Positions 320 to 20,998 of a DNA stretch of 20,998 bases are shown piece by piece (the first letter of the stretch is position 1; every line of letters begins with the position of its first letter). The position numbers and the translations under genes are program-made. This DNA comes from a virus, in the IMG/VR virus record IMGVR_UViG_3300023119_000154, positions 1-20,998 of that record; one strand, written 5' to 3'. The notes under the pieces are model-generated. The model was given only the letters and a program-made list of their open reading frames with translations, was not told where the DNA came from and searched no databases.

Positions 320-697
320 ATGTCCAAGTACATAGATTTAGATTTAAAATTTCTACCACATCCAAATACAATGCGTGTAAATCATGTTGTGGGGAAAGCC
401 GCTATCTTTCGTTCTATAAGTCATATACTTTTCACACGTCCTGGAGAAAGACTTTACAAACCTGACTTTGGCATCGGGATTCAAAATCAATTGTTTGAAC
501 CAAATGATTTTATTGGTATTGATTCTCTAAAAACAGATATCAGAGATCAAATAAAAAATTATGAGAATCGTATTACTGTAACAAATCTTGAAATTACAAA
601 AGAACTTTATAATCTTGATATAAAACTTTCTTTTTATATAAACACGGAACCATCAAATGAAATAACATTTGAAAGGACTGTCAAACAGATTCGCTAA
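320..697 (+). CDS. 25: Baseplate wedge protein gp25
   Basis: 125 residues, close to the 132 of T4 gp25. The protein is part of the inner baseplate wedge, where it binds the gp6 dimer and helps connect the wedge to the sheath; the same fold is found in TssE of type VI secretion systems. The family signature is visible: a helix with RSISHIL, then TRPGERLYKPDFGIGIQNQLFE (residues about 39-60), matching the T4 block with a conserved Gly, Arg, Pro, Phe and Gly followed by QLFE. The YENRI segment (about 81-85) corresponds to the NYEPRI motif of the family. The ATG at 320 gives the expected N terminus but has no purine-rich ribosome binding site upstream, so translation probably depends on ribosomes arriving from the preceding gene, which ends 12 bases away. 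Gene 6 follows after 3 bases. Identification is firm. Confidence 0.94.
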   Translation: MSKYIDLDLKFLPHPNTMRVNHVVGKAAIFRSISHILFTRPGERLYKPDFGIGIQNQLFEPNDFIGIDSLKTDIRDQIKNYENRITVTNLEITKELYNLDIKLSFYINTEPSNEITFERTVKQIR

Positions 698-700
698 TCA

Positions 701-2545
701 ATGTCTAAAATACCTAAAGAACATATAAGTGAATTAGATTTTAATGAGATAAGAAAAAACTTTCTTAGTTATGTACAAAATAATTCTGAATTTGCGAATT
801 ATGATTTTGAAGCCTCAGGTTTAAATTTCGTTGTTGACCTTCTCGCCTATAATACACAATACAATGCCTTTTACTTGAATCAAATCTCAAGTGAAATGTA
901 CTTAGATACAGCACAGAAAAGAAAGAATGTTGTATCAATCGCAAAGCAAATGGGCTACACTCCTCGTTCAAAGAAATGCGCCCAGGCGGAAGTTTTACTT
1001 CGCTTAACAGGTACTGAGAATTTCAGAGGACCTCTTCCTGTTGAAAGATATACTGAATTAATCGGTAAAGATATTAATGAAGATACATATCCTTTTGTTG
1101 TAAAACACCGTGTCAATGTTTCAGGAGGACGTAATTGGGAGGAGCCATTAATATTATTACAAGGTTCACATCAAAGAGAAGAAATAGTAGTTAATAATCT
1201 CATGCTTGAAAAAAAGTATGAAATACCAAGTAGAGATATTGACCTCAATACTCTTGAAGTTTATGTAAAACCATTTCGTGAATCACAAGAACAAGAAAGA
1301 TTTTTTGAAGCTCAAGATATTACACTATTGAATAAAGACTCAAAAATTTATTTCATTGAACAAAATTATGAGGGCAAGTATGAATTAGTATTTGGTGATG
1401 GTGTTTTGGGTAGAGCAGTTGAGAATAATAATTGTATTGTATTAGAATATCTTGTCACCCGGGGTAACGAAGGTAATGATTGTGTTCAATTTAATTTTAA
1501 AAATCGTAAAGAAATACCGATCAATTATCTTATAAGAACAGTTAGTCCTTCAGCCGCTGGACAAGCCGAAGAAGATATTGAAACTATTCGTTTAAGTGCA
1601 AGAAAAAGTTTTATGAGCCAAAATCGGCTTGTGACCGCAAAAGACTATGAAATTGCATTATTAAGATACTTTAATTATATTGATACAATTTCTGTTTGGG
1701 GAGGAGAGCAGAATGATCCGCCTGCATACGGAACAATTTTTTGCGCAATTAAACCAAAAAATTATCCGTCATTGATGGGTACTCAAAGACAAGAAATTTC
1801 AAATAAACTTAAAGAACTAAGTGTAGTTACAATTACACCTAAAATTTTAGATCCTATTTATACATTCATAAGAGTAAAAAATCAAATTGTTTATAATGCA
1901 GATGAAATTACATCAACAGAAGGAACAATTATAAATGAAACAAAAGTACTGCTTCATAATTATTTAAAAAATAATTTATTAAAATTTGAAAAACAATTTC
2001 ATATCTCAGATATTAATCGATTGGTTGATAAACAAGATGATAATTATGTTGCAACAAATACAGCAGTTGTACTGTATCAAAGAATATCACTTGATGTTGG
2101 TGTACCAAGTTATTATGAAATTAATTTTAATAATAAAATAAAACATGGATCTCTTAAAGCAACTCACTTTGATTATCTTGACGAAAATAATAATTACATT
2201 CGTAATTGTTATTTGAAAGAGAATTCTAGCTTTAATGGAAAAGTTGATGTTGTAACTGATATTATGGTTGGAACTATAAAAGAAACAGCAGTTATAAAAA
2301 AAGATGTTGCAGACATTAATTATGATACAGGTAAATTTAAACTTGAAACTTTTCTACCATATTTGTCAGATGGAAAAACAGAATTTATTATTGATGTAAC
2401 ACCTGATACGTTTATTATTTCACCAGCAAAAGAACAAATCTTAGCAGTGCTTGAAGAGGATATTGAAATTTTACCAGAACCATTTGTTGATCGTGTGGTC
2501 AATTCACAGACACTTACAAAAAATGGGATGTTTAAATCCTTATGA
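701..2545 (+). CDS. 6: Baseplate wedge protein gp6
   Basis: 614 residues (T4 gp6 has 660). gp6 forms dimers that link neighbouring wedges into the baseplate ring and belongs to the baseplate J family. The N-terminal segment, with a DFNEIRKNFLSYVQ helix and then YDFEASGLNFVVDLLAYNT (residues about 31-52), matches T4 gp6 (YDFEGSRLNVLCDLLAYNT) almost position by position. A QMGYTPRS segment near residue 85 matches the T4 NGYLPTS. Further along, FGDGVLGR, an AEEDIETIR helix and the LVTAKDYE segment are typical of J-like proteins. The gene starts 3 bases after gene 25 without a clear Shine-Dalgarno sequence. Its TGA overlaps the ATG of the next gene (ATGA, 2542-2545), which suggests coupled translation. 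The C-terminal ~130 residues are less similar to anything I know. Identification is firm. Confidence 0.94.
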   Translation: MSKIPKEHISELDFNEIRKNFLSYVQNNSEFANYDFEASGLNFVVDLLAYNTQYNAFYLNQISSEMYLDTAQKRKNVVSIAKQMGYTPRSKKCAQAEVLLRLTGTENFRGPLPVERYTELIGKDINEDTYPFVVKHRVNVSGGRNWEEPLILLQGSHQREEIVVNNLMLEKKYEIPSRDIDLNTLEVYVKPFRESQEQERFFEAQDITLLNKDSKIYFIEQNYEGKYELVFGDGVLGRAVENNNCIVLEYLVTRGNEGNDCVQFNFKNRKEIPINYLIRTVSPSAAGQAEEDIETIRLSARKSFMSQNRLVTAKDYEIALLRYFNYIDTISVWGGEQNDPPAYGTIFCAIKPKNYPSLMGTQRQEISNKLKELSVVTITPKILDPIYTFIRVKNQIVYNADEITSTEGTIINETKVLLHNYLKNNLLKFEKQFHISDINRLVDKQDDNYVATNTAVVLYQRISLDVGVPSYYEINFNNKIKHGSLKATHFDYLDENNNYIRNCYLKENSSFNGKVDVVTDIMVGTIKETAVIKKDVADINYDTGKFKLETFLPYLSDGKTEFIIDVTPDTFIISPAKEQILAVLEEDIEILPEPFVDRVVNSQTLTKNGMFKSL

Positions 2546-8500: not shown

Positions 8501-11500
8501 CAATTGCAAATGAAGATAAAATCAAAACATTCTATTGGACAAAAATTACAGATTGCCATTTGAGAGAACCGATTCGAGATTATACTCGAGACTTAGTATA
8601 TACGGGCAAGGTAAGTCAACAAACAATTCAAATACAAGAGCGGTCACCGAATACATGGATTGTTGATGCAGAAACATGGCCAACATATACAGACGAACAA
8701 TTAATTAATGGTGAATTTGGTCTTCTTGAAAAGTTGACTGAGGTTGAGATGGGAATTCGGTTAGATGATCGTTGGAAATATCTTGCTCTTGATGGTATTA
8801 TTAATTCAAAACTATATGAACCAATTGGACGTGACATTCAAAAGAATGAAATTATTCAAAGTAACTTGCAGCACATACCAACTGTTCTTGTAAAAGGTTT
8901 GACAAAGATACGAAAAACTGATGAAGTAATAACAAACTCAACTGCAAACATTGTTTCTTCTTTAATTCGACATGCTGATCAAGATGTAGAAGCAATGTTT
9001 ACAACTAAAGAAGAAAATGAAGACGAAATTATAATCAATATGAAAGACCGTGGTAAGATTATTGATTTGAATGATATTATTGCGGCTAAATTCTGGAAGT
9101 ATATTCAGCCAAATATGGACAATTATGAAATTACAGATAGTCCTTGGGAATTTATTCCAACTGTAAAAGCTACTGCTTTCAATGAAATTGAACAGTATCG
9201 TTCAAACAGTCTGATGGCTGTTGCAAATCCAGATACAGTTCAAAGTACAAGAATTAAAAAGAAAAAGGACAAGGCAAATACTGCAAATTCAATTAGTCCT
9301 ACAATGCCACCAGCTAAGGAATCACCAAGAATTGATAGCCGTGATGACTTCCATCGAATGATTGATGCACAGTTTCGGCTTGATGATAATCCAGAATTAG
9401 AATATGTGATGAATCTGAGAGACCGCTGGATGTTATTGGATTTAGATGATATCATTGCACCAAGATTCTTTGAGTTGCTACCTGCACGACCACAAATTTA
9501 TACTATTTCTGATTATGTTGATGAGTATATTCCGACTGTAAGAGCAGTTGCATTTAATGAAATTGAACAATATCGCAATAATGTTATGACTGCAACATAT
9601 GAATCAATGACAACAGTTCCATTTACTCAATCAGTTGAAACTATGCAAACAACTGATGAAGAAAATGAAATTGAATATGTCATTGATATTCTAGACAGAA
9701 ATAAAGCCATTGATCCAAATAAGATTATTGCTGCAAAATATTATGATTATATTGCACCAAATATGATGAGATATCCAATTTTGGATTATGTGCTTGATCG
9801 AATTCCTGTGGTGACTGTTGATAGTAGACCATCAATCCGTGTAAAGAATGAACATAAGTATAACTTGCAGGCAAATCTATTCTTTGCAACAACATTTACT
9901 GGTGAGGACCTGCATCAAGAGATTGATGTATCCCATGATACACATGAAAACAATGAAGTCGAATATGTAATTAACATGTTTGACCGATGGCGCACAATAC
10001 CTCTTAATGAAAAACCTGTTGAGGGCCGTTGGGAAAATTGGATTATAACTAAGAAATCTTTGATTTATCCTATTGTTGATGATAAAAATGGTTATATGCC
10101 AACCGTAAGAGTTGATCCATTACCATCAATTATACCAACAAGAGAAGAAAAGCACGACCTTCAAAGCAATACATTCCCATATACTGTAATGACAGGAGAT
10201 TTCTTATCTTCTGTAGTTGAAATGAAACAAATAGTTGATGAACATACTGAACTTGAACATGTAGTAACATTGTGGGCAGATTATACAATTAATCTAGCAG
10301 ATAGTATTGGTCCTTGGTATGATGAAGTAATAACTGAAGCACTTCTTGAAACGAAACTAAGAGACAAATATTATACAGCACATACTCCGAAGTTCAAAAC
10401 ACTTCCTGAAATTGAAGTTGTCCATGAACATACTGCAAATGTAGAATACTTTACAACATCAGTAATGTATGATGAAGCAACATTTAATGATGTAAGTGGT
10501 GAAGTTGAACTTGAAGGTGAACATGAAAGACTTATTCATATACCTGATCGGCATCGATTAGTTAACTTGAATGATCGTATGCCACATTATCTTGCAGATG
10601 AATATATTCATGACAGTGTATGGTTTGATTTAGGAAAACGAATTACATGGGATGATGGCTATGCAATGCCAAGAATGACAATTGATAGTAGACCTTCAAT
10701 TGAATCACTACGAACATATCATCATGATATTCGATCAAATACATGGCTGTTTGAAACAACATCACACGATTCATATATTGATCAATCATTTGAAACTACA
10801 CCAATTAATGATCTTGAGTTTGAGAATAAGATTGTACAACGAGCGCCATATTTTGATTTGACAAAACCAATACCAATCAATCAATGGTTTGGTATGGGAT
10901 TTGCTCAAGAAATTACTGATGAATGGACCAAATTAAAGTTGACTGATTGGGTTGGAGATAAAGCAATCTTTGGTGCAGTTGACCCAGAAGTTTATATTAT
11001 AAATGCAAATACAGTAAGCATGGAACCTGAATATGATTTTGTTTACACCGCACTTGAAGAACAGTCACTATATGTGAATTTGGGCCCAACAACTGAATAT
11101 CAAGAATTGAATAATGATGTATTCATGTATAATGATAGTAAAACTTTTGGTATGGAAAGACAAACGAAATCATGGTTTAAAGATTGGATACTTGCTGATT
11201 ATCTGAATCATCGTCTACGTCCAAATGCAACAATACCAACCGTTGCTCCAGGACCTCTATCAAATTACGAAGCAGAACAAAGACTGGTTAACCGACCAGT
11301 GCATTCGGCATATGGGCCTCAACAATGGAAACAAGATCGTTGGACATTTAAAGTTTCTACAGATCCTCAAACAGTTACATGCTATACTGAGTTTACTCTT
11401 GATACATTTGTTGAAGGCCATATGATTTATACTGGTACTGAAATTCGTGCTGAAACTCAAATAAATGCAGAGATGTTACCAAATGAATACGATGAAGACG

Positions 11501-12741
11501 GTAATATAATTTCAAGAATTCAACTTGATGAGCAAAGATTGATCATGTTCTATCCTGTTGGTATTGAAAAATATGGTAAGAATAAAGATAAGTTAACTTG
11601 GAAGATGTCTGCTAAAGATTGGGTATCTGAATACATGACGAAACCAATTGAAGAGTTTATTCATATTCCAGTTGATGTATTTGACATGGCAGATATTCGA
11701 ACTGAAAGTGAAATTTATTCTCAAATGCCAAATGCAAATAATGTTTCTGGTAATACATGTTTTACAAAAGTTGATGAACAAAGACTGACGATGGAATATC
11801 TTGTTGATGGTTCACCATTTGCAAATTCAATAACATTCCATGATTCATATGGTTCACAAAGACTTGGTGTTTACTATCCAAAAGATGCTTGTTTGCCTTT
11901 AGGATCTCGCTCCGAAGCTTTCAATCAATATATAAAGGCATCAAATGTCAAGCTTCAGGGAGTTGATGCATTATTGCCATTGATTGATGATGCAACAGTG
12001 AAAGCATTTTCTCAAGATCCGGGTAATACTCATGGTAGTAATACTTCAACAACTGTTTACCATAAAAACTTATTTTTTGATAAATCTGGTCCAGCATATT
12101 TGCTTGATAAAAATCGAAACTTTTTCACTGAGTTAAATGATTTAACAGCAAACACCGCAAATAATGGACCTCGAGCAAATCGTGATATTGAAATGGCATC
12201 ATTTGAAAGATATGAATTTCGAATCACTGATATTGCCAATACACATGCAAATGGAGTATTTGCTTTGGGTTTAGCAGATGTATATGAAAAAAATCGTGCA
12301 GATGCGGCGAACTTAATTTTTGGTGATGCGAATTCAACATATATGGTTGACGGAGTTAAATATACAAATTGGGCTGATTATCAAGCAGACTTTGCAAATG
12401 GTTCAAATGCAGTAATTACATTCCATCCAACAATTGAATTCTTACATACAAAAGGATTGAATGCGAATACTGCAAATGGAGATACTTGGGAAAAGAGAAC
12501 AGGTGTTTATAATACACCTAGTTGCGACATAAAAACTGGTAATACTGTTGCAAATACATTCGAAATATTCTATTTCACAACAGCAAATAATGAAATCTTT
12601 AGTGCGGGAGGAATTATCAGGATTTACGAACTAAATATGTTAGAGGCTTATGATTTTACTATAAATAAAAAAGAGTACTTAGATAATATACGAACATTGC
12701 CAGAAATAAATGATTATGTAAGTTCTGACTGTATTGCGTGA
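2542..12741 (+). CDS. Giant gp7-like baseplate wedge protein (3399 aa)
   Basis: A single uninterrupted frame of 3399 residues in the gene 7 position; T4 gp7 has 1032. Three blocks match the C-terminal part of T4 gp7: a FPSYFLEQYPQFVKFIEEYY helix (about 12-32); ILDYYQKRGTEDSMYWFFRI (about 154-173) followed by an acidic strand ending IELYYPK; and YYYQTYSYE (about 645) with LHPAGF (672-676), equivalent to the VHPVGF region. gp7 is the largest wedge subunit and joins the gp6/gp25/gp53 core to peripheral baseplate proteins. The three-block pattern is also usual in large virion proteins of marine T4-like phages, and a related fold occurs in tail protein I/TssG. Residues ~690-3399 have no counterpart I recognise. 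They are acidic and rich in Asp, Asn, Tyr and Trp, and they include the tandem repeats at 8740-10950. There are no membrane segments and no intein-like splice motifs. It starts by a 4-base overlap with gene 6; gene 8 follows after 34 bases. I am sure it is coding; the gp7 assignment for the N-terminal part is good, and the rest is unassigned. Confidence 0.85.
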   Translation: MSSPRDLIESQFPSYFLEQYPQFVKFIEEYYDFLESSIVVFNEPKRCKPGDVLYGSLSKAKAIVKIAADNKFYFDYQTENNTFYKNEVVLNGSTGEIYVIKNVYQNIFSFAKNMEKETAYDTVRSLYKKYFKRDISLDHSIFRRVDPNTLTKRILDYYQKRGTEDSMYWFFRIFFDDDIELYYPKVNILRLSDTNHIQRRWMQIVYDVSLERFYKTRIVGVKSKATATVRATEVRNRHSNTRAFLDLIFINGNFVENEEIIGYDIITGQEKARSFVRKTAGKLKILDGGIGHFMKDEFGFADGVGEVVWQDEYSVTQIKVLNPGYLHSPGDVIEFDNEYRGATAFANAEVQTVQTDYQFSDYAFHLNTVMKYQQVSSFLHMNLTDFIANNSPTIFENAHSASQLPDTWKKLGPIDKLQINKSGLNYKFAPAAKVINTNKVAHITKYFDLTFDLQHPNTYLMDANTFVIIDGEPAYFQGVKSISNNIFLSNTNLLTEDFHVHRFIAPRWLEANNRIATANIQFYTSSNTLELSDILFDTYNKNEVMNLPVKALHSWEGLANVSQIEPELGYGISRVQATQAGLMARIDDKISFLDKPELREYDNPNILHGLTAEVELEESILFDPIPFFKENNSNLSSEKHIQDNYYYQTYSYEIITSLKPDDIDMNLFDDLHPAGFIAFVRNRIDWEMQQHLKVTAFPRVEIYVETAKCMIDTHEAIQRIQITHKKMEAQSTEERDFYTRVEVDNTADNTIKETEVYPRFEEVAFVNAFEAFKFYVEDVLIRPESSTFTEFRQCLGGNLTFDHGSTPTDLLDLEITFDSIETEPPWGRFDGTGGCELTGYGTTKEYQKLIREQFHYDGHVAIESFVKLINIEDKANWKADIIEAFGGRIGDRLDQPINNHVATVEEIIERTVGNNPGKRILIRDSMGEASKVFFDSEYSYNWQENKYYDAFPVNFTENPYWLWDLDKSAYNAAAMNVDPLEPDFSDDGGGPKRCRADWHDHNARNFSNEPATAYMPTISGNTIEYRGSYLPTTEVLTKNRGFIQIQYVQPSDIVATINDKGETVWLNPTEVIRQEYTGYMYRITDYNRISFTVTPRQNLVLFDERAKPDIKAELWKAERIQLPRMVNHSFAIVDHKSTSMTDDSITDYIPVTNCHKFLIEYTGYVYCLQFADYKEGIGATDKFRVNEADLSALQIALEIRDEKMLPKVDVPAEQPTIWNYDHIKSGIRIDMSSFTYNIDANSAVLGISNTRFEEAKLNHAKMLNIDGPLFDRNMGWYDKLTFDNTNLAEFSDSGERFKVFATRMYSASAVALTPKPVVIETPLIYQKETLANYSGQIGGFLPDSPYFEKANTANGEIQEKSGADLTQITYLDFGDQSATMQPMSTLSQENDIGLYPKFYNQKIGWDNRPLDPPWMPYGLFDAANTTTINVRTHRFDADANTGALTFGHTIGDANYTEQPHELVRFNNLFDSIKFDFTFDKTHARYKTNEQKVFAVQTLSSEAEGKARAKYGGSEQIRIRENFGTAIVATIKNYRIDPKKKFFDSLIYTFDRDYNKAQYSEEGWDSGHTPRKLDLDCFHLFFDADGIDFGRLDIQYYTRDFAPKTLDNTGLNFTQTDTNWDRYGWLYKDCSSRYTPFPYDETDTSIRLDLELVYEIDGYGPHNYAASFDDGDNRYGFSRTKFPKFDNSRGAIKPYIDPEYVITIDGGHTPFEPTAGDCVIEIDAAPFRDVEAKLVLEQPLKWISGPFFDRAKKDVSFDQIFEPKFDDIHSGHIPPLIAESEQVLINYNDVYVCDYGWIYHHTLVDRYLKMKIHPFLSRRGGCPPDTTEGTVAVGDYYFYNFDHADMSIELEDVETIVYHAPSEVQEVIETIEMPEIEVVTEIQSCKPIRYTDTIAYFERYFIEAYMGDDCPGPDRLQRNELFLWPSIINDVKLNMRAYAWQAIYSDEINSNTAEVVVITDGFGSTKLDSYWGEHYIHVDQPILSRNCAIANEDKIKTFYWTKITDCHLREPIRDYTRDLVYTGKVSQQTIQIQERSPNTWIVDAETWPTYTDEQLINGEFGLLEKLTEVEMGIRLDDRWKYLALDGIINSKLYEPIGRDIQKNEIIQSNLQHIPTVLVKGLTKIRKTDEVITNSTANIVSSLIRHADQDVEAMFTTKEENEDEIIINMKDRGKIIDLNDIIAAKFWKYIQPNMDNYEITDSPWEFIPTVKATAFNEIEQYRSNSLMAVANPDTVQSTRIKKKKDKANTANSISPTMPPAKESPRIDSRDDFHRMIDAQFRLDDNPELEYVMNLRDRWMLLDLDDIIAPRFFELLPARPQIYTISDYVDEYIPTVRAVAFNEIEQYRNNVMTATYESMTTVPFTQSVETMQTTDEENEIEYVIDILDRNKAIDPNKIIAAKYYDYIAPNMMRYPILDYVLDRIPVVTVDSRPSIRVKNEHKYNLQANLFFATTFTGEDLHQEIDVSHDTHENNEVEYVINMFDRWRTIPLNEKPVEGRWENWIITKKSLIYPIVDDKNGYMPTVRVDPLPSIIPTREEKHDLQSNTFPYTVMTGDFLSSVVEMKQIVDEHTELEHVVTLWADYTINLADSIGPWYDEVITEALLETKLRDKYYTAHTPKFKTLPEIEVVHEHTANVEYFTTSVMYDEATFNDVSGEVELEGEHERLIHIPDRHRLVNLNDRMPHYLADEYIHDSVWFDLGKRITWDDGYAMPRMTIDSRPSIESLRTYHHDIRSNTWLFETTSHDSYIDQSFETTPINDLEFENKIVQRAPYFDLTKPIPINQWFGMGFAQEITDEWTKLKLTDWVGDKAIFGAVDPEVYIINANTVSMEPEYDFVYTALEEQSLYVNLGPTTEYQELNNDVFMYNDSKTFGMERQTKSWFKDWILADYLNHRLRPNATIPTVAPGPLSNYEAEQRLVNRPVHSAYGPQQWKQDRWTFKVSTDPQTVTCYTEFTLDTFVEGHMIYTGTEIRAETQINAEMLPNEYDEDGNIISRIQLDEQRLIMFYPVGIEKYGKNKDKLTWKMSAKDWVSEYMTKPIEEFIHIPVDVFDMADIRTESEIYSQMPNANNVSGNTCFTKVDEQRLTMEYLVDGSPFANSITFHDSYGSQRLGVYYPKDACLPLGSRSEAFNQYIKASNVKLQGVDALLPLIDDATVKAFSQDPGNTHGSNTSTTVYHKNLFFDKSGPAYLLDKNRNFFTELNDLTANTANNGPRANRDIEMASFERYEFRITDIANTHANGVFALGLADVYEKNRADAANLIFGDANSTYMVDGVKYTNWADYQADFANGSNAVITFHPTIEFLHTKGLNANTANGDTWEKRTGVYNTPSCDIKTGNTVANTFEIFYFTTANNEIFSAGGIIRIYELNMLEAYDFTINKKEYLDNIRTLPEINDYVSSDCIA
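8740..10950 (+). repeat. Tandem array of ~93-residue protein repeats in the giant wedge protein
   Basis: About eight degenerate units follow one another inside the giant CDS. Each begins with a strand of the form E-Y-V-I-N-x-x-D-R-W, then I-D-L-N-D-I-I. About 20 residues later comes I-P-T-V-R followed by a PSI or NEIEQYR element, then a D-L-Q-S-N-T-F-like element, and the unit closes with an acidic linker. The aligned Asp-Arg (or equivalent) codons start at 8767, 9046, 9421, 9694, 9982, 10276, 10546 and 10837. Spacings are 93, 125, 91, 96, 98, 90 and 97 residues. The 125-residue unit carries an inserted basic linker (RIKKKKDK, about residues 2237-2244). Fainter copies may extend on both sides: PNTWIVDAETW before the first unit, and IPTVAPGPLSNYEAEQRL near 11236. 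Conservation is at protein level only, which suggests old duplications. The fold is unknown. Confidence 0.75.
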
Positions 12742-12775: not shown

Positions 12776-15283
12776 ATGCCAGCATTAGTGCATACCACAT
12801 TCCGTGTTAGTAATGCTAAACAATTTCGTGAAAGTTTTGAAGAAAAGAAAGAAAACGGTATTGGTGGTTATGTTCCAGCACACTTGTATGCTTTCAGTGT
12901 TGCAAATAATCAAATGGAACTTTCTGCCACAACGGTAGCTAATACCGATATTAATAGTATTCCAACCTATGCTTTGGATGATCAAATTTTCTTGTTCATT
13001 GGTAGAGTTGGAAAATGGAGCCAATTTGACCATGCCGCATATGAAGTGGATGGTACAATTGATCCAAACTACAACGAGAATAACCCTCCTGCTCCTGTTG
13101 ATAGTCCGAAGGATTCACACTTTAATCACTGGGATGATATGATTGCAGCAAAAAAAGTTGCTGCTTCTGAAGTATCTCATGTAATTAAAAGAGAAAGAGC
13201 AGATGAAATTCGTGCTGGTGTAAGAAACTGGAAAGCTGGTTTGCGCTATGATGAATATGATAGCCGTGATCCATTCATGTTTGATGATGACATGTTGATC
13301 CACACCACAAACGATAAGTTCCGTGTTTATAAATGTATCAAGCGTGGAACCGGTAAGTTTACAAGAATTGATAACGTCCCCGGTGTATTAGCTGATTATT
13401 CCAACAATAGTGGTGGTGCTAATACTGTATGGATGTGGAACTATCAGTCAACAAGAGAGCCATTACTAAGAGATATTTCTTGTGATGATCCAAATGGAAA
13501 GTGGACGGAAGATTTCATGTACACTGGACCAACTGCTGACGATGCCTATAATGACGGCTATCAATGGAAATATTTCTATACAATTGATGCAGGTCAAGCA
13601 TTGAAGTTCGTAACAACTTCATATATTCCTGTAAAGAGATTGCGCAAAGAAAATGGTGATATTATTGATGATTCTTCTGACCAATATGTAGTAGAAGAAG
13701 CTTCCATTCCTGGAGCGATTCTTAATGTTGTTACATTGAAGAAAGATGAAAACGGTTATGATTCAACTGGACAACGATATGGATACGATACAAGAGGCGG
13801 TGATGGTTACTTCCAAACAGCATTCAAAAGTGTAAGAATCCAATCGTCTTTTAGTTCGTTGGCAAATACTATGCAGTTTGATGTTACTCTTCCTTCTGCA
13901 CCAGCTGCACCAACAAATGCGCCAAAATGGCCAAATCCAGAAATTGCTCAATTGAATGCTGGATTTGATACAGCAGTCCCAGGTAGAAATCAATTTGATA
14001 CTCAAAGTGTAGGTGGTCAAGCCCATACTTGGATTAATAACTTAAACGGCAATGACCTTGAAGGATATGGTATTGTAATTACAGGTGCTGATCCTGGTAC
14101 AATTTTTGATAATGAAGACTTTACACGATATGTGTATCCAATTGATGCAGCATTATGTACAACGCCAGGTACTTTCCATATTAAGCAAGATTTCCTCAAA
14201 AGAATTTCTGGAAAAGTTTCTAGAGATCAAAATCCTAGATTACCAATTGTTGCTGGTCCTCCACATGGAACCTGGAATGAACTTGGTGGTAATAACGTTT
14301 CAATTGCAATTCATCCAATTATTAATATTGAATCAAATTTCCAGAGTACAACTGAATCAGATCCTGTTGATGCGTTTCAGGCATATGCAATCTGTGAACC
14401 TTTAGCTGATGTAACTGCTACACCGTTCCCAGTATATCATCAACAAAATCCAGGTCGTATCATTGATGCGTATGTCCAAAATCCAGGACGTTACCACTAC
14501 AGAATTGATAAAACTATGGTTGCAAATAACACCTTAACAGATACTGCATCAGGTGGTACAGCAAATTCTGCAGTAATGTGGGCATGTATTCCTCCTGTCG
14601 GTGGACATGGTTGGGATCCTGTAGAAGAACTTGGTGGATTTAACGTCATGATTAATGCACGATTCGAAGGTGACGAAGCTGACGAATTTACTGTAAAGAA
14701 CGAATTCAGAAAGATTGGTATTCTAAAGAATCCTCTCCAGTATGATACTCCGTTTGGACCAGGTGCAAATACAGACTTGAATCAACTTTGGCAATCACCG
14801 TTTGGATATGAAGAATTGTTCAGAGAGTACAAAACTGATCAATGTTATCGCATATTCTTGAATGGTAATCCTACTGTTGGAGCAGTAACAGGTACCGGTC
14901 CTTTGAGATACGAGCCTGATATGGATGTTGAATTTATTTCAACTAAAGCCATTACCGGTGTAACTGGTGAACCATATTCCATCGGTGACGTTGTTGCTAA
15001 AGCAAGAGTTGTAGATCATGATGATGTGCAACATCGTGTACGTTTCATTAAGCCACGAAAAGATTGGGGTACAATTCTCCGAGGTGGTGATTTTGAAATC
15101 AAATCAGTAACAAAGCACTCTGTTGAAAACGAAAGTGTAACAGGTAATACAAAGAACACTCATACATCTGAAACTCCAGGTATGAAGCCGTTCTCTGGAA
15201 AAATCCTATACATTGAAAACAGAAGTATGGTTTCTCGTTCTGAGAATCAAACTGAAGACTTGAAGATTAGTATCCAGTTCTAA
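12776..15283 (+). CDS. 8: Baseplate wedge protein gp8, enlarged (835 aa)
   Basis: 835 residues against 334 in T4 gp8. gp8 is a dimeric wedge protein on the outer face of the baseplate that contacts gp7 and gp10. The start MPALVHTTFRVSNAKQF is the usual N terminus of gp8 relatives (compare AIVTSKFR in T4). Then come FLFIGRVGKW (about 72-81), HWDDMIAAKK (118-127), FRVYKCIKRG (182-191) and DGYQWKYFYTI (260-270), the last matching the DGYVWEYLFEI stretch of T4. The extreme C terminus, SGKILYIENRSMVSRSENQT (about 807-826) and the strand after it, matches SGEMIYMENRPPIIMAMDQT in T4 and its final strand. The extra length is mainly between about residues 300 and 720, an Asn/Pro/Gly-rich region I cannot assign. 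Start support comes from AAAGGAG 7 bases upstream. It is the last gene of the + strand baseplate run, ending 23 bases before a hairpin terminator. Confidence 0.92.
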   Translation: MPALVHTTFRVSNAKQFRESFEEKKENGIGGYVPAHLYAFSVANNQMELSATTVANTDINSIPTYALDDQIFLFIGRVGKWSQFDHAAYEVDGTIDPNYNENNPPAPVDSPKDSHFNHWDDMIAAKKVAASEVSHVIKRERADEIRAGVRNWKAGLRYDEYDSRDPFMFDDDMLIHTTNDKFRVYKCIKRGTGKFTRIDNVPGVLADYSNNSGGANTVWMWNYQSTREPLLRDISCDDPNGKWTEDFMYTGPTADDAYNDGYQWKYFYTIDAGQALKFVTTSYIPVKRLRKENGDIIDDSSDQYVVEEASIPGAILNVVTLKKDENGYDSTGQRYGYDTRGGDGYFQTAFKSVRIQSSFSSLANTMQFDVTLPSAPAAPTNAPKWPNPEIAQLNAGFDTAVPGRNQFDTQSVGGQAHTWINNLNGNDLEGYGIVITGADPGTIFDNEDFTRYVYPIDAALCTTPGTFHIKQDFLKRISGKVSRDQNPRLPIVAGPPHGTWNELGGNNVSIAIHPIINIESNFQSTTESDPVDAFQAYAICEPLADVTATPFPVYHQQNPGRIIDAYVQNPGRYHYRIDKTMVANNTLTDTASGGTANSAVMWACIPPVGGHGWDPVEELGGFNVMINARFEGDEADEFTVKNEFRKIGILKNPLQYDTPFGPGANTDLNQLWQSPFGYEELFREYKTDQCYRIFLNGNPTVGAVTGTGPLRYEPDMDVEFISTKAITGVTGEPYSIGDVVAKARVVDHDDVQHRVRFIKPRKDWGTILRGGDFEIKSVTKHSVENESVTGNTKNTHTSETPGMKPFSGKILYIENRSMVSRSENQTEDLKISIQF

Positions 15284-15338: not shown

Positions 15339-16595
15339 TTAAATTATGGAGAGTTTGAATTGTGAAACAGTTCTTCCGAAGAGATGGTCAAGATTTGAGC
15401 CACTTCCGTTATAGCATCGTCCGTACACCCCCGCTCCCATCCAATTAACCTGTCGATACCAATGCATACCACCCCAACCCATTTGAGCAGAACACCAATC
15501 AGAGTAGGTACTTCCGTTGTGGGCAGTTATTTGATCATTCGCAGAAATTGAACCATCATTTGAAAAATTAACCAATGTTTTTCTTGCTGCTAATGCATTC
15601 AAACGATTGTAGCCTATTGTTGCTTCACAGCCCGGCAAACGAGTTACCTTTGATCGATGTCCTGCCGTACTCAACGTTGCTCTTTGAAGATAGCCAATAA
15701 TGTTATGATGATAATAAGCTTCGTAGTCGGTTGGATTTGGTGATTTAGTGTAGTCAATTAAATAATCTGTTTTCTTTTTTAAGTGTGTGCCACACCCGTT
15801 AACTAGTTCAATCTTAACTTGATGTGATGTATAGCCAAAGGTTATAGGTGGTTTTGTATAAATCAATATATCAACTAGTCCGCTTGGCTTGTCAATATCA
15901 TTAGTTAAATACACATACTTATTTGCAGTAAGGTTTACACGTTGTCCCCATGGTTTTGGAGAATATCTTGGTTTAATGATCGCCTCACTGTGAAAAGCAT
16001 AAGACATATCAGTAATTACAACACCACCAGGACCACCGTTTGCATAAAATGTGTAGTGTAAACCTCCATTATTTTCAAGATGCGGAACAGGTGTATAAGG
16101 TGAATTGGAAATTACAGTATCGTAATTTGTACTCATATAACCCATATCAAAAATCTGACGTAGGTATCCATGATCATCTTTTGTGATTTGAAATCTTGTA
16201 CCTACTGCTTTCCACCTACCAATACTCATGTCAAAAATATTACCACTTCCATTATTAACATTCGTTAAATCTATAGGAAGGTTCCAACATTTTGCTTGAC
16301 ATGCTATACCATCAATTACAATATCCCATTGAACATCAACATATGGTATTGGCGTTTTCAACCAATCCAACGTGACGGGTTCAAGTAATGATTGTTTGTT
16401 GACCAAACCTTTATCAATTAATACACCATCAAAAGGTGGTACAGAACTTGCACCATAGAAATCTTTAATACCTATTTTACCACTTGTAGGTATACCAGTA
16501 CTGGCTCCATAATATGCTTTTAAATTAGGATCAGTTCTGGTATACTCTGTTTGAATATCACTTAAAGTAATTTGACCTGATGATTGTAGTGTCAT
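15339..16595 (-). CDS. Tail fibre/adhesin-like virion protein with SGxIxLSDI N terminus
   Basis: 418 residues. The N terminus carries two short related blocks, SGQITLSDIQTEY (6-18) and TSGKIGIKDFYGAS (37-50). This phage-tail motif is often found at the base of small tail proteins and fibres, where residues around it attach to other virion parts. After a PPFDG linker (about 53-57) the protein is rich in Tyr, Trp, Asn and Gly, with scattered Cys, and ends in a Trp/Gly/His-rich segment (GWGGMHWYRQVNWMGAGVYG, about 372-391) such as is common in surface-exposed binding tips. No enzyme motif is visible. Its ATG overlaps the TGA of the fibre gene upstream (ATGA, 16592-16595) and has no Shine-Dalgarno sequence, so the two are probably translated together and may act in one fibre. 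Role in host recognition is inferred from neighbourhood and composition, not from a recognised domain. Confidence 0.75.
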   Translation of the reverse strand: MTLQSSGQITLSDIQTEYTRTDPNLKAYYGASTGIPTSGKIGIKDFYGASSVPPFDGVLIDKGLVNKQSLLEPVTLDWLKTPIPYVDVQWDIVIDGIACQAKCWNLPIDLTNVNNGSGNIFDMSIGRWKAVGTRFQITKDDHGYLRQIFDMGYMSTNYDTVISNSPYTPVPHLENNGGLHYTFYANGGPGGVVITDMSYAFHSEAIIKPRYSPKPWGQRVNLTANKYVYLTNDIDKPSGLVDILIYTKPPITFGYTSHQVKIELVNGCGTHLKKKTDYLIDYTKSPNPTDYEAYYHHNIIGYLQRATLSTAGHRSKVTRLPGCEATIGYNRLNALAARKTLVNFSNDGSISANDQITAHNGSTYSDWCSAQMGWGGMHWYRQVNWMGAGVYGRCYNGSGSNLDHLFGRTVSQFKLSII

Positions 16596-18889
16596 TTGTT
16601 TTTAAGTTCATCAATTTCTTGTTTAAGTTCTTGAATTGCTTTGAGCAAAAGCACAGAAAGTTTAGGATAATCAACAGTTAAATAATTTTCACCTGATACT
16701 GATACACCTTCACCATTATCGTCTACTGGCGCAAGTCTCACTAACTCTGGCATAACTTTTTCGAGTTGCTGTGCGCTAACACCAATATGGCTATTTGTAT
16801 CAAATCCCAAATCATTTGCTGTTGAATTATATGAAAAGGCAAATGTATCAAGGTCTGAAATTTTATCAAGTGCATTTTCAATTGGACTCAATACTGTTTT
16901 AAGTCGATCATCAGATGCTGCAGCAAGAATATCTCCTGTCATTGATTTAATATCACCATCTGCAGTGATTGTTGATGCACCAACAATTGGATTTGTCAAC
17001 ATATCAAGACCAGTTGAACCTATTTTACAAGTCAAATCACCATTGGTAAAGATACCAATATGTCCAGCAGGTACAGTTTCTTCGGAAGGTGTTCGTGCTT
17101 TGTCACTGAGTAAGATACCATTGCTAAGATAATTTCTTGTTGCAATATCTTCAATGGCATGTGCATACATCCAAGGTGCAGCAATATTAACTGAATCTGG
17201 TATTTGTCCACCAAGAACAGGTAATGAATGTTCATGAGCTATTGATGGCCCAAGACCAATACCTGAATTGTCAAGTCCTGTTTCACCAGATATAGCATCA
17301 TTTGGATAGCCTACACTTGTTTTTGGACCAAGAAGAATACTTCGATTATGTTCAATACCATCAAATGGTGGTGTAGTTAAACTAATTAAGCTTCCATCAA
17401 AATCAACATAGAACAATAAGTTTGTTAGACGATCACGAATTAATCTACCCACTCCAATTGCATCAACAATATTTGTAGCACCGTCAAGCTCAAAATTACC
17501 ATCACTCTTTGGCTTATAAATTTGCATTGGTGTTGATGATAGATCAAAGATATATTCTTCGTATACATCTGGTGCAAAGTTTTCAAATTTGATATCAGAG
17601 AATCGAGCGCCTTGTGAGAGACAACCATATCCATATGATTTCTTACCACGAAACTTTTCAAATCTTGGATCATCTTTAAGATCAAATTCAATTAAAGTAT
17701 TTGCATCAAATGTTGTTTCATCATCTTGTGTTGTCCAACATTTAATTGAATCACCTTCTCTGCGAATTTTAATTCTTGTACCATTTGTCATTGTTGACCA
17801 ATTGGCATTAGCAACCTTATGTGGCACTTGTGCTGTTTTATCATGAATTTTAGCACCATCTGATTTATTATAATTATAATAAATTGCCCAAGATACACCA
17901 TTAGAATCATGATTTCTTATAGCAGATAATGTATATTCAATACCGGCTTCTTCAACATATGCAATGACTAATCCCATTCGATCATTATCCGCACCAGCAG
18001 CACCGGCTGCCGCAGTCAATTGAACGTCAAGTTGATAATCATCAAATTCCTTTGAACTTAAAAATCCAACATATGTACTTGTATTAACTAAACAATCAAT
18101 GTAGGCATTTGCCGCATCATAAGAAAATGCATTCATTTCACTTGCTTTTGGTCCGCTAGTAGAGTGTGAGAATCTTTTCCAACTATTGAATATAGTTGCG
18201 GCACTCTGACCACTTGATAATGCGGTTGCCAAGTCACCTGAATTTGTAGGTAAATATGTTTGAAATAAAATCCATTCAGGTGATGCTTCTCTTGAATTAT
18301 CTTTATTAATGATATTAACTTGATTTCTTAAACCAATGCCATTTGATTTTGATATAAGTTCTTCAATTTCAGAATCAGTTCTTACATTTACTGATCCTTT
18401 TGTAAGAGCAGATCCATTCCATTGTAGAAATTCATTACTTGAAGTTGAGAAACCTGCCGCTGGTTTTGTTACTTTACTTGAAACAGATGTTAGAATTGAA
18501 GCAATATCACTATCATTACTTTTTAATTCATTTTCAAGTTCCTTTAATGTATCATAAGCAGAACTTGCACCACCAAGTAAATCATTAAATTTATCAGTGA
18601 CATACTCATTGATACCTTTTGCTGTTACCAATGTATGATCATTAAGTGAACTCATGTTTGTAGAAATTGCACCAATTGCAGGACCTGTTCCAATTTGAAT
18701 TGAAGTATTTGCAGTTAACTGCTGAACAGAACAATTGATAAAATTTAATGAACGATTTGGATCAAAACGGACAAGAGCATTTGGAGAGCCAATGGCAGTT
18801 GCTGAATTATTCTCAGCAACTAAATCATTAATACGATACATCCATTCACCGAATGTATTCGTGGTAACTAAACTTTGAATAGAAGACAT
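16592..18889 (-). CDS. Tail fibre with lectin-like domain and C-terminal S74 chaperone
   Basis: 765 residues. The N-terminal ~180 residues look like a fibre shaft, with a LVTAKGINEYVTDKFNDLLG stretch (87-106) and a helical DTLKELENEL segment, then a FLQWNGSALTKG block (154-165) of the kind common in tail-fibre collars. Residues ~258-436 resemble a beta-sandwich sugar-binding domain frequent in marine phage fibres, with DNDRMGLVIAYV (301-312), a SWAIYYNYN strand (333-341) and KSYGYGCLSQ (417-426). The C-terminal ~107 residues are a peptidase S74 intramolecular chaperone: SDDRLK has the Ser659/Lys664 pair with the spacing used for self-cleavage, followed by IGVSAQQLEKVMPELV and a terminal helix. 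Such domains trimerise the fibre and are then clipped off. Upstream, GGTGA gives only a modest ribosome binding site, and a late-promoter-like octamer lies about 50 bases away. Identification as a fibre is firm; the receptor is unknown. Confidence 0.88.
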   Translation of the reverse strand: MSSIQSLVTTNTFGEWMYRINDLVAENNSATAIGSPNALVRFDPNRSLNFINCSVQQLTANTSIQIGTGPAIGAISTNMSSLNDHTLVTAKGINEYVTDKFNDLLGGASSAYDTLKELENELKSNDSDIASILTSVSSKVTKPAAGFSTSSNEFLQWNGSALTKGSVNVRTDSEIEELISKSNGIGLRNQVNIINKDNSREASPEWILFQTYLPTNSGDLATALSSGQSAATIFNSWKRFSHSTSGPKASEMNAFSYDAANAYIDCLVNTSTYVGFLSSKEFDDYQLDVQLTAAAGAAGADNDRMGLVIAYVEEAGIEYTLSAIRNHDSNGVSWAIYYNYNKSDGAKIHDKTAQVPHKVANANWSTMTNGTRIKIRREGDSIKCWTTQDDETTFDANTLIEFDLKDDPRFEKFRGKKSYGYGCLSQGARFSDIKFENFAPDVYEEYIFDLSSTPMQIYKPKSDGNFELDGATNIVDAIGVGRLIRDRLTNLLFYVDFDGSLISLTTPPFDGIEHNRSILLGPKTSVGYPNDAISGETGLDNSGIGLGPSIAHEHSLPVLGGQIPDSVNIAAPWMYAHAIEDIATRNYLSNGILLSDKARTPSEETVPAGHIGIFTNGDLTCKIGSTGLDMLTNPIVGASTITADGDIKSMTGDILAAASDDRLKTVLSPIENALDKISDLDTFAFSYNSTANDLGFDTNSHIGVSAQQLEKVMPELVRLAPVDDNGEGVSVSGENYLTVDYPKLSVLLLKAIQELKQEIDELKNK

Positions 18890-18985: not shown

Positions 18986-19291
18986 ATGCCAATTGATCCA
19001 GATGTACAAATAGAACTTGATGCAATTAATACCATGTTAAGCTCAATCAATACGCAAATTGCATCGATTAATTCTTCATTGTCAACATTAAATACTGGTC
19101 TTTCAGATCTTGGAGACCAAGCAGATGCTCAAGGTGATGCAATTGCGGCACAACAACAAGCAAATGCTGATGCTGACGCCGCAAATGCGGCAGCTATGGC
19201 ATCATCACCTGATGAAAAGTGGATCGACTTTGACAATGATCCTGACGGTGTGTATGTAACTTCTGGTGAAAAAGTAATGAGAGAACCTTAA
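18986..19291 (+). CDS. Small predicted coiled-coil protein (101 aa)
   Basis: 101 residues of unknown function. Residues ~8-45 show a regular seven-residue spacing of Ile/Leu (INTMLSSINTQIASINSSL and on), as expected of a long parallel coiled coil. An Ala/Gln/Asp-rich helical stretch (about 45-73) follows, then a short acidic tail with WIDFDNDPDGVYVTSGEKV. There is no signal peptide, membrane segment or enzyme motif. It is the only + strand gene inside a - strand block and has its own late-promoter-like element and an ideal Shine-Dalgarno sequence. Its TAA overlaps the TAA of the convergent neighbour through the shared TTAA at 19288-19291. The trimeric-fibre look and the place beside fibre genes suggest a minor virion part, such as a whisker, a fibre stalk or an attachment piece. 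This is inference; an assembly chaperone is equally possible. Confidence 0.8.
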   Translation: MPIDPDVQIELDAINTMLSSINTQIASINSSLSTLNTGLSDLGDQADAQGDAIAAQQQANADADAANAAAMASSPDEKWIDFDNDPDGVYVTSGEKVMREP

Positions 19292-19782
19292 TACAACAAA
19301 CGGTTCTGCATTCGTTTGAATTCAATCTCAAAGTCTGAGCCTCGTTTCGCCAGAAATTCCGCATAAATCTTACAGCAGATTTCAACACCACGTCCTCTTG
19401 GCTCAACTTCATTGCGAAGTCCTTCAAGTACAGACCTTGCAAAGTTTCCTGGTGTGTTGGCAAGGACTTCCATGATTGGTGACCACTTGTTGTTAAAACG
19501 TTCTCTTCTTCTTCGAGCACGTTCTTCAATCTTTTTGTTGTGTCGCATTTTCTTGCGAAGGTCATCCAAAGCATGTTTCATTGGCTTACCAATGGTCGCA
19601 TCATTCGTTTTTTCAACACAAGTAGTACCAACAATATATTCTTGACCTCTTGCATCTTCAATATGACAGAGATATTTGATTGGTCGTCCGCAGTGATTAC
19701 AGTGTTCACCACCAACAGTTAGGCGGGTAAAGGTGTAGTTTGGTGTTGAGCCGGTGAGTGTTTCTTCAAATGGATGTGACAT
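19288..19782 (-). CDS. Zinc-ribbon-like, basic protein of unknown function (164 aa)
   Basis: The start is placed at the ATG at 19782, giving MSHPFEETLTGSTPNYTF and 164 residues. It has AAAGGAG 6 bases upstream and lies downstream of a strong promoter. A longer frame from TTG at 19812 would begin before the predicted transcription start. Residues 27-55 hold C28-x2-C31-G, C39-H40 and C55 (in GTTCV), with the pattern HCNHCGRPIKYLCHIED...GQEYIVGTTCV. This resembles the small zinc ribbons common in phage and bacterial uncharacterised proteins. It is followed by a strongly basic helix (RKKMRHNKKIEERARRRRER, about 76-95) that could bind nucleic acid, and then a helical C-terminal half. I know no function for the family; a DNA- or RNA-binding host-takeover role is only a guess. 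The fourth metal ligand is uncertain. Its stop overlaps that of the coiled-coil gene. Confidence 0.82.
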   Translation of the reverse strand: MSHPFEETLTGSTPNYTFTRLTVGGEHCNHCGRPIKYLCHIEDARGQEYIVGTTCVEKTNDATIGKPMKHALDDLRKKMRHNKKIEERARRRRERFNNKWSPIMEVLANTPGNFARSVLEGLRNEVEPRGRGVEICCKIYAEFLAKRGSDFEIEFKRMQNRLLY

Positions 19783-19788
19783 GACTTG

Positions 19789-19795
19789 CTCCTTT
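19789..19795 (-). promoter_or_regulatory. Ribosome binding site that fixes the zinc-ribbon-like gene start
   Basis: On the - strand AAAGGAG is followed by 6 bases and then the ATG at 19782. It would fall inside the coding sequence if the TTG at 19812 were used, so it supports the shorter protein. Confidence 0.85.
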
Positions 19796-19814
19796 AGAGT
19801 TTGTGAATACAATG

Positions 19815-19842
19815 ATCATATCAGATGTAAACGTAATGTCAA
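19815..19842 (-). promoter_or_regulatory. Near-consensus sigma70 promoter (extended -10)
   Basis: On the - strand, TTGACA (19842-19837) matches the -35 consensus exactly. After 16 bases comes TATGAT (19820-19815), one mismatch from TATAAT, preceded by TGA, which supplies the extended -10 TG. Transcription would begin near 19808, giving a leader of about 26 bases that contains the Shine-Dalgarno sequence. The -35 begins 2 bases after the stop codon of the upstream cyclase gene. This is a host-type, early-phage promoter, unlike the T4-late-like elements before the fibre and coiled-coil genes. Confidence 0.8.
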
Positions 19843-19843
19843 G

Positions 19844-20998
19844 TCATAAAAATAAAATTCTTCTTCTTTCTGCTGACATATGCTCACCTTCATCCTCACA
19901 ACGTTCAATATAGAGTTTCGCAACATAGTCAGATGGATCTTCTGCAATGACTTCTTTGAACATTAAATCAGCACGAATAAATTCCGCATTCATGAACGCA
20001 TCATATGCTCGATCAAAAAGCGGTAAAAGTCTCATTTTTCTTTCAATCATTGGTTCTGTATAAACATCCAAAAGTTGATAAATATCTGTTTTTTCTTCTT
20101 TGCCTTTTACTGCTACGCTATCGATCATTCGAAGCCGGTAGCGAGACTCTGGAAGCTTCTGGACAGTATGTCCAGACAATAGCACCGGCACATTATAATA
20201 CTTGGTTAATGCTTCTAATCGTGAAGCAAGATTAACCGCATCACCAATTACAGATGCCTCCATTCGGTCATGCGTACCGAGTGTTCCTAACATCAATCTA
20301 CCCGAGTTTACACCAACACCAATTTTAATTGGATCATAATTCGAATCAATTAAGTAATCATTAAACATATGAAGTTTTTTGATCATATCAATTGAACATT
20401 GAATAGCATCAGTAATATCATTATGAAAGATTGCCATGATACTATCACCAATAAATTTATTCACGAAGCCATTGTTATTACGGACTATTGGTGTCATATG
20501 AATTAAGAAATCATTGATAAATTTAAAGTTTTCTTCTGGTGTCATTTTCTCACTGATTGTAGTAAACCCACGAATGTCTGTGAATAAAATTGACATATCA
20601 TATTCTTTTTGATCACCAAGTGTTACATCAGTGATTCTTTTTTTATTCAGCAACAAATTCAATTCTTCAGGTACAAATCTTGCATATGATTCTTTAAGTT
20701 TTAATTGGTCATTTAATTGGTCTGCTTCTGTTTGACGAATCTTGAGTGTTGCAGTAACACCTAACAAACAAATTAAACCACCTAATAAAAATTCAGAACT
20801 AGGTAATGCATCAAAAGGCACATTAAATTTTAAAATTAAAATATATTTTAATGGTATCAATGTTAAGAATATCATACTTGTCAATAAGGAAATAGAATAA
20901 GCCTTTTTATTTGTTACAGAGATGGCTGCATATACAATTAATGGCATTAATTGAATCATCCAAAAAATAATAATCACTAATGGTGGAATAAATGATGG
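19844..20998 (-). CDS. Membrane-bound class III adenylate/guanylate cyclase, 5' end missing
   Basis: The frame is open through the right edge of the window, so the GTG at 20977 is probably not the true start. Numbering from it, 377 residues are visible. Three hydrophobic segments (about 1-21, 27-50, 59-80) are followed by a short coiled-coil linker and the block SYARFVPEELNLLL (97-110), which in bacterial cyclases leads into the catalytic domain. Catalytic residues appear complete: metal-binding Asp134 (LFTDIRGFT) and Asp178 (KFIGDSIMA), base-recognising Lys174 and Ser242 (before VIGD, where Asp or Thr is usual), and transition-state Asn249 and Arg253 (DAVNLASRLE). A VAVKGKEEKTDIYQL strand ends the domain, and a TPR-like helical tail follows (about 313-370). 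It should convert ATP to cAMP at the inner membrane; GTP use is less likely given the Lys. The truncated N-terminal region could be a CHASE2 or 7TM sensor. It is codirectional with the zinc-ribbon-like gene, 61 bases upstream of its start. Confidence 0.9.
   Translation of the reverse strand, partial: PSFIPPLVIIIFWMIQLMPLIVYAAISVTNKKAYSISLLTSMIFLTLIPLKYILILKFNVPFDALPSSEFLLGGLICLLGVTATLKIRQTEADQLNDQLKLKESYARFVPEELNLLLNKKRITDVTLGDQKEYDMSILFTDIRGFTTISEKMTPEENFKFINDFLIHMTPIVRNNNGFVNKFIGDSIMAIFHNDITDAIQCSIDMIKKLHMFNDYLIDSNYDPIKIGVGVNSGRLMLGTLGTHDRMEASVIGDAVNLASRLEALTKYYNVPVLLSGHTVQKLPESRYRLRMIDSVAVKGKEEKTDIYQLLDVYTEPMIERKMRLLPLFDRAYDAFMNAEFIRADLMFKEVIAEDPSDYVAKLYIERCEDEGEHMSAERRRILFL

Follow-up and report, generated by a model that had tools for sequence, protein, structure and literature searches.

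The window analysed here, one complete virus record of 20,998 bases, carries at one contig end the 3' part of a gene whose product is almost certainly a phage receptor cyclase. The full-length protein of its relatives is predicted to join a seven-helix membrane part (7TM) to a class III nucleotide cyclase, and two genes for PilZ proteins lie upstream of it. Phage cyclases of the curli-linked type are already known; new here is a 7TM receptor-type phage cyclase behind two PilZ genes. No description of a 7TM or PilZ-linked phage cyclase was recognised among the open-literature matches listed, a scope that leaves most subscription papers and preprints outside. The features of the window are the following.

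320..2545, plus strand: gp25 and gp6 baseplate wedge genes (Pfam PF04965, PF21379; phrog_261, phrog_219)
12776..15283, plus strand: gp8-like baseplate wedge (Pfam PF09215, phrog_438)
16592..18889, minus strand: tail-fibre protein with S74 chaperone domain (Pfam PF13884, PHROG tail fibre)
19288..19812, minus strand: 174-aa protein with several Cys in its N-terminal half (open reading frame; weak matches to PHROGs of unknown function)
19844..20998, minus strand: 3' part of the receptor-type class III nucleotide cyclase gene (open frame, PF00211, 91% identity to the protein of virus record L006)
19847..20071, minus strand: C-terminal helical tail (alignment with L093, L104 and L123; helices 641-698 in the model)
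20072..20605, minus strand: class III catalytic domain, residues 132-309 (Pfam match; D141, K181, D185, S249, N256 and R260 in 384-codon numbering)
20753..20977, minus strand: last hydrophobic segments of the seven-helix membrane region (hydropathy scan; frame residues 8-26, 32-50 and 64-82)

The cyclase frame comprises 384 codons and a stop, its 5' end being lost at the contig end. It corresponds to residues 327-710 of the 710-residue L006 protein, and as judged against that protein the GTG at 20977 is an internal codon. The initial annotation had described a membrane-anchored class III cyclase with a complete active site, and had proposed a profile search. This search bore out the class, with Pfam Guanylate_cyc (PF00211) scoring 80.2 bits against a cut-off of 21.9 over residues 132-309, and the anchoring agrees with three hydrophobic segments found N-terminal to the catalytic domain. 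Class III cyclases are recognised by two metal Asp residues and by the transition-state Asn and Arg, while adenylate specificity goes with a Lys plus Thr, Ser or Asp in the base pocket. All six catalytic residues named in the annotation were found, i.e., D134, K174, D178, S242, N249 and R253 as numbered from the GTG (adding 7 gives the 384-codon numbering), and they are kept in all five phage proteins compared. K507 is invariant in 53 of 53 aligned sequences. Of the 79 bacterial catalytic stretches, 46 were taken into an alignment. The pocket Ser is replaced by Thr in 46 of 47 bacterial relatives compared, the exception being L093, a 7TM cyclase of SAR324. Because K174 and S242 stand in the base pocket, as in the adenylate-type rule, ATP is very probably the substrate, in agreement with what the annotation had read from the Lys. 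The helical tail behind the domain is common to bacterial cyclases of the same branch.

Judging from the relatives, the full-length protein of 710 residues would begin with a signal peptide and a periplasmic part, followed by the seven membrane helices, which a long helix links to the cyclase. An AlphaFold2 model of the L006 protein, built on an alignment of 53 rows, reached a mean pLDDT of 67.9. The catalytic domain was predicted with values of 82-94 per ten-residue block over residues 451-640, except for one block of 72, while the blocks of residues 1-400 ranged from 31 to 80. Behind the signal peptide follows a poorly predicted part with beta strands, and then seven helices at 177-212, 216-241, 247-273, 279-306, 332-355, 359-384 (broken) and 394-432. 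The best match in the PDB by VIA-align was the adenylyl cyclase OaPAC (8qfg; Z 22.4, 229 residues, 3.4 Å), and CyaB (3r5g; Z 22.0, 180 residues, 1.7 Å) and the cUMP synthase 7r65 (Z 20.0, 189 residues, 2.9 Å) were also matched. The match lists were filled by the cyclase domain and are hence uninformative for the 7TM part. The N-terminus of the L006 protein had no Pfam match at E 1, 7TMR-DISM (PF07695) included, and hhalign gave a negative result (E 0.058, 23 columns) when the phage and SAR324 7TM part was compared with two 7TMR-DISM cyclases of Leptospiraceae. Among relatives of the 7TM part, PF07695 scored 17.2 bits in L189 and 27.6 bits in protein L236 of genome G040, the cut-off being 29.

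The annotation had placed the gene in a phage, next to fibre genes, and this stands: the window neighbours are gp25, gp6, gp8-like and S74 fibre genes, and relatives carry T4-like tail genes. Six further virus records with the 7TM cyclase were found by scanning viral sequences with aligned 7TM cyclases from phages and bacteria, giving seven with the window. One of them, L005, is nearly identical to the window, and the cyclases of L230 (an 84 kb contig), L231, L232 (41 kb) and L233 are 72-73% identical to that of L006. Directly downstream of the cyclase and in the same direction lies the gene of the 174-aa protein, which a separate viral scan found in the window, L005 and L006 only; at this position L230-L233 have a different small gene on the opposite strand, followed by a fibre-like gene and further on by a gp8-like gene. 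The start of the fibre-like gene resembles the window fibre by eye; the L230 copy has no PHROG match, and its gp8-like gene has one. Ten proteins of the 84 kb relative were scanned, and eight matched: DNA polymerase, UvsX, a DnaB-type helicase, primase, NrdA, NrdB and two baseplate wedge proteins. The gp6 of the window is nearest, among the named phages listed, to Melnitz, HTVC008M and cyanophages (28-30% identity). Two observations on the surrounding genes are added here. A protein of 3399 aa is encoded in gp7 position at 2542-12741 of the window, with the best stretches of the baseplate wedge models within its first approximately 260 residues. Proteins resembling GIY-YIG endonucleases by eye are encoded between the fibre-like and gp8-like genes of L232 (7175-7795) and L233 (4896-5822). 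The GC content varies from 0.28 to 0.40 along the window and is 0.37 at 19501-20500. Values of dN/dS were 0.12-0.21 in all ten pairs of five phage cyclase sequences, although they are rough because dS exceeds 1 in six pairs. By these rates the cyclase is evidently under purifying selection, a working phage gene and no chimera.

Upstream of the cyclase, PilZ1 and PilZ2 were found on the same strand in each of the four records which reach there (L006, L230, L231 and L232, with PilZ1 of L231 cut by the contig end), while the other three of the seven end before the positions of the PilZ genes. PilZ2 and the cyclase overlap by 4 nt in all four, the cyclase of L006 starting with ATG. An overlap of equal length joins PilZ1 to PilZ2 in L230, L231 and L232, and in L006 the two are separated by a gene for a 207-aa protein. 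The scores with PF07238 (cut-off 22.5) were 31.4 and 31.3 bits for PilZ1 and 25.4 and 34.9 bits for PilZ2, in L006 and L232, respectively. A SOUL gene, the product of which is over its Pfam cut-off, precedes the PilZ genes in three records. It is complete in L232, and a fragment of it stands at the start of the L006 and L230 contigs; in L232 it is itself preceded by a gene for an RCC1-repeat protein. As a separate observation, the SOUL heme-binding protein (L232 452-1204, L006 1-234) looks lipoprotein-like by eye, in a T4-like phage. PilZ proteins are used by bacteria as readers of c-di-GMP, with RxxxR and D/NxSxxG as receptor motifs. Both motifs are present in PilZ2 in three of three sequences. 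In PilZ1 the RxxxR is absent from the place aligned with that of PilZ2 in all three sequences, NxSxxG occurs in L232 only, and L006 and L230 have RGDDR a few residues upstream of the aligned place. A search of 50,697 phage records at E 0.01 with the L006 versions of PilZ1, PilZ2 and the 77-aa SOUL fragment gave no match. A Maribacter phage has a PilZ-domain protein in its gene list, as given in PMC11590407. It was also seen that each of the seven records breaks either within the cyclase gene or at most 2.06 kb before its start, perhaps because the region there is hypervariable or rich in repeats (RCC1). No contig extending further upstream came out of viral scans in which the 7TM part, PilZ2, SOUL and PilZ1 served as queries; such scans are not exhaustive, since two of them, each made with a single protein, missed records that the alignment-based scan found.

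That T4-like phages have no such enzyme, as the annotation had supposed, is wrong. A cyclase is also present in Pelagibacter phage HTVC008M (AGE60353) and in four Melnitz isolates (Melnitz QZI95054), in both cases after csgF, csgG, curli-repeat and FecR genes. In PMC9599517, the curli clusters of podo- and myovirus pelagiphages are reported to include adenylate cyclases nearest to alphaproteobacterial ones. Curli genes of phages are also discussed in PMC7029224 and PMC9004378, in the accessible text of which the word "cyclase" does not occur. A set of 80 viral cyclase loci was taken from 584 confirmed stretches; 74 of these loci match the HTVC008M cyclase into its CHASE2 part, and the available flanks of 44 include a curli or FecR gene. 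The 7TM part and the PilZ genes were found at none of the 80 loci (tblastn, E 1e-4), many of the stretches being short. The score for CHASE2 itself was 134 bits with the HTVC008M protein and 140.7 bits with that of Melnitz, and the L006 protein gave no match to this domain. A tree was computed from 64 catalytic domains, including 13 of 20 bacterial CHASE2 rows (an earlier set took 55 of 170 catalytic rows). In it, the window and L006 fell among cyclases of bacteria, and the curli-phage sequences joined the CHASE2 cyclases of bacteria on a branch supported by an SH-aLRT of 100. One clade of the phage 7TM cyclases (five rows) and the curli-phage cyclases was rejected with p-AU 0.009, in a test of two trees, the groups being chosen once a first tree had been seen and the long-branched L003 (Melnitz) being omitted. 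Because the clades are separate and a joint one is rejected, phages appear to have taken up cyclases at least twice; as judged from these trees, the 7TM cyclase is an acquisition separate from the curli-linked type.

Relatives of the whole protein were found in bacteria of the SAR324 phylum, recognised as such through L099 and L155. The best full-length match, among 80 of 441 genome-scan matches, was L093 in genome G003 (32% identity, residues 1-694). Three of the 52 genomes of the phylum (G003, G027 and G028) have full-length 7TM cyclases, at E 1e-99 or better. They have the same N-terminal 7TM module, aligning over residues 12-694 or more with 32-34% identity, but adjoin the gene of a hydrolase-like lipoprotein (named by eye) and no PilZ gene. 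In G036 and G040 the output of the same 7TM part is a SpoIIE phosphatase instead of a cyclase. When the 7TM cyclases of phages and of SAR324 were constrained to a single clade, the likelihood was 12.9 units above that of the free search (p-AU 0.756, in a test of two trees with groups chosen in the same way). A 7TM profile, searched on the SAR324 phylum only and with three of its rows coming from SAR324, matched nine of the 52 genomes. PilZ2 of L232 has relatives in six of the 52 (G036-G041) and in none of the 398 genomes of the phylum of L103, titled as Methylococcaceae, both at E 1e-5, and PilZ2 of L006 matched none of five further genomes at E 0.001, including G034 and G035 of the SAR324 phylum. 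Relatives of PilZ2 co-occur with the 7TM part in G036 and G040, and are absent from G003, G027 and G028, which have the full-length 7TM cyclase. No host-pointing tRNA was present in the window or in the available stretches of G001, G002, G055 and G057. With the group searches covering the phyla of SAR324 and L103, these matches make SAR324 a plausible source and host, at about an even chance.

Three further stretches are described for their own sake. A SiaABC-like set in G040 (L236, 2875-10216) consists of two 7TM-SpoIIE phosphatases, a DUF6272 protein which we take to be SiaB-like, SiaC and a class III cyclase. Its 7TM module is that of the phage cyclase, and the place of its class III cyclase is taken in Pseudomonas by the diguanylate cyclase SiaD. 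L007, a 3.6 kb contig of the viral collection, encodes a fusion of response regulator and cyclase (43% identical, residues 430-694) and a transposase-like gene, and was rejected as a phage relative, being probably bacterial by eye. 'Acinetobacter phage MD-2021a' (CAKLQF020000009.1, L004) was set aside, as the stretch read from one of its two records is bacterial chromosome with isc genes.

The organisation of the cyclase/PilZ operon suggests a virus that may take over the control of host behaviour. The receptor cyclase would be made during infection, inserted in the host inner membrane and dimerise, and would convert ATP to cAMP, its rate depending on what the periplasmic and 7TM part senses. 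The cAMP would act through cAMP receptors of the host, a route proposed because no cNMP-binding domain was found in the six phage records searched, which are possibly fragments. PilZ2, with both its c-di-GMP motifs, would read or soak up c-di-GMP of the host. Together, the two proteins could override the choices that the host normally makes between motile and sessile life and in carbon use, and the phage might profit through phage production or through the blocking of a second infection. No diguanylate cyclase or phosphodiesterase was found in the phage stretches scanned, and 35 further proteins encoded on the 84 kb contig had no match to another second-messenger domain at E 1e-4. As the scanned stretches thus contain neither these enzymes nor a cAMP receptor, both halves of the scheme depend on host parts. 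That a cAMP source and a c-di-GMP reader of a T4-like phage shift motile/sessile and carbon-use decisions of the host is in our view evenly poised between right and wrong, and the motility and surface reading of the cyclase's role stands a shade lower. Doubtful, though worth stating, is a stronger version in which a self-contained two-messenger module from SAR324-like bacteria, a ligand-gated 7TM receptor producing cAMP, with its own c-di-GMP reader, lets the infected cell sense its environment and rewires the motility and surface state.

The position of the gene at the window edge and the bacterial character of its family are what a host gene, a misassembly or a chimera of virus and bacterium at the contig end would give. 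This origin was rejected, and we give it next to no chance: seven virus records agree in having the cyclase beside tail genes, in four records, with proteins up to 28% divergent, the PilZ genes follow on the other side of the cyclase, and GC is 0.33-0.37 in the stretches measured. It could also be argued that the gene does the same job as the cyclases of curli-linked pelagiphages, with curli genes further upstream past the contig ends. The breaks within about 2.1 kb in all seven records leave room for them, and the nearest named phages by gp6 include two which carry such clusters. We nevertheless regard it as quite unlikely, since the sensor is different, without CHASE2, and the joint clade of the two phage groups was rejected; the upstream genes found are SOUL, PilZ, an RCC1-repeat gene and one without Pfam match, and csgF, csgG and FecR were absent from the flanks of the 7TM cyclase records, which extend at most 2.06 kb upstream.

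To drive a CRP-type regulator of the host, a class III cyclase suffices by itself, and the cAMP might thus serve host metabolism only (catabolite control, energy metabolism), with the PilZ neighbours as incidental cargo. The other viral cyclases, at the 80 loci described above, do without these PilZ genes, which fits; the 4-nt overlap of PilZ2 with the cyclase start in all four records does not, nor does that of PilZ1 with PilZ2, which is found in three records though the genes downstream vary, and we consider this explanation rather improbable. The annotation had further raised a link to Pycsar, in which the product would compete with or trigger cyclic-nucleotide defence. A Pycsar cyclase profile, PDLC02367, does match the catalytic domain of the window protein with 67.5 bits, but the same profiles match the HTVC008M cyclase with up to 85.4 bits, so the matches reflect the common catalytic domain. 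Pycsar cyclases are soluble and thus unlike the 7TM fusion, the pocket residues are of adenylate cyclase type, and a PADLOC match was obtained in none of the five neighbour proteins scanned, the DNA available upstream being limited. Beyond the shared catalytic domain the link found no support, and a role in counter-defence or of Pycsar-like kind is very unlikely. The combination of cAMP source and c-di-GMP reader is the reading which we prefer. If the two-messenger reading is true, the phage would encode an environmental receptor independent of the curli-linked kind. The 7TM type of phage cyclase makes it possible to test if a cell under infection perceives its environment by way of phage proteins. 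The gene may also serve as an entry point to the phages that infect SAR324, a marine group not in culture.

The phage cyclase can be compared with several known systems. CyaB, CyaC and OaPAC have the catalytic fold in common with it, at Z of about 20-22 for the predicted structure, whereas their sensor domains are other than that of the phage protein. Receptors of the 7TMR-DISM type (PF07695) have a signal peptide, a periplasmic domain, seven helices and a signalling output, all of which are also predicted for the phage protein, with pLDDT of only 31-80 per block over residues 1-400, but its N-terminus itself is without a Pfam match at E 1. The Maribacter phage Panino is likewise a marine phage with a PilZ protein, and a cyclase is not mentioned in the accessible part of its description (PMC11590407). 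The closest comparison is with the curli-linked cyclases of pelagiphages and methylophages, which share with the window lineage the class III catalytic domain, a membrane sensor protein and the genome of a T4-like marine phage, and which keep the two Asp, Lys and Arg in 81 of 81 rows and the Asn in 80 of 81. The HTVC008M cyclase and the window protein are 34.5% identical, in the catalytic region only. The curli-linked type has a CHASE2 sensor and csgF, csgG and FecR as neighbours, whereas the window lineage has a 7TM part and SOUL and PilZ genes. This second, separately acquired type of cyclase points to more than one uptake of receptor-type signalling by T4-like phages.
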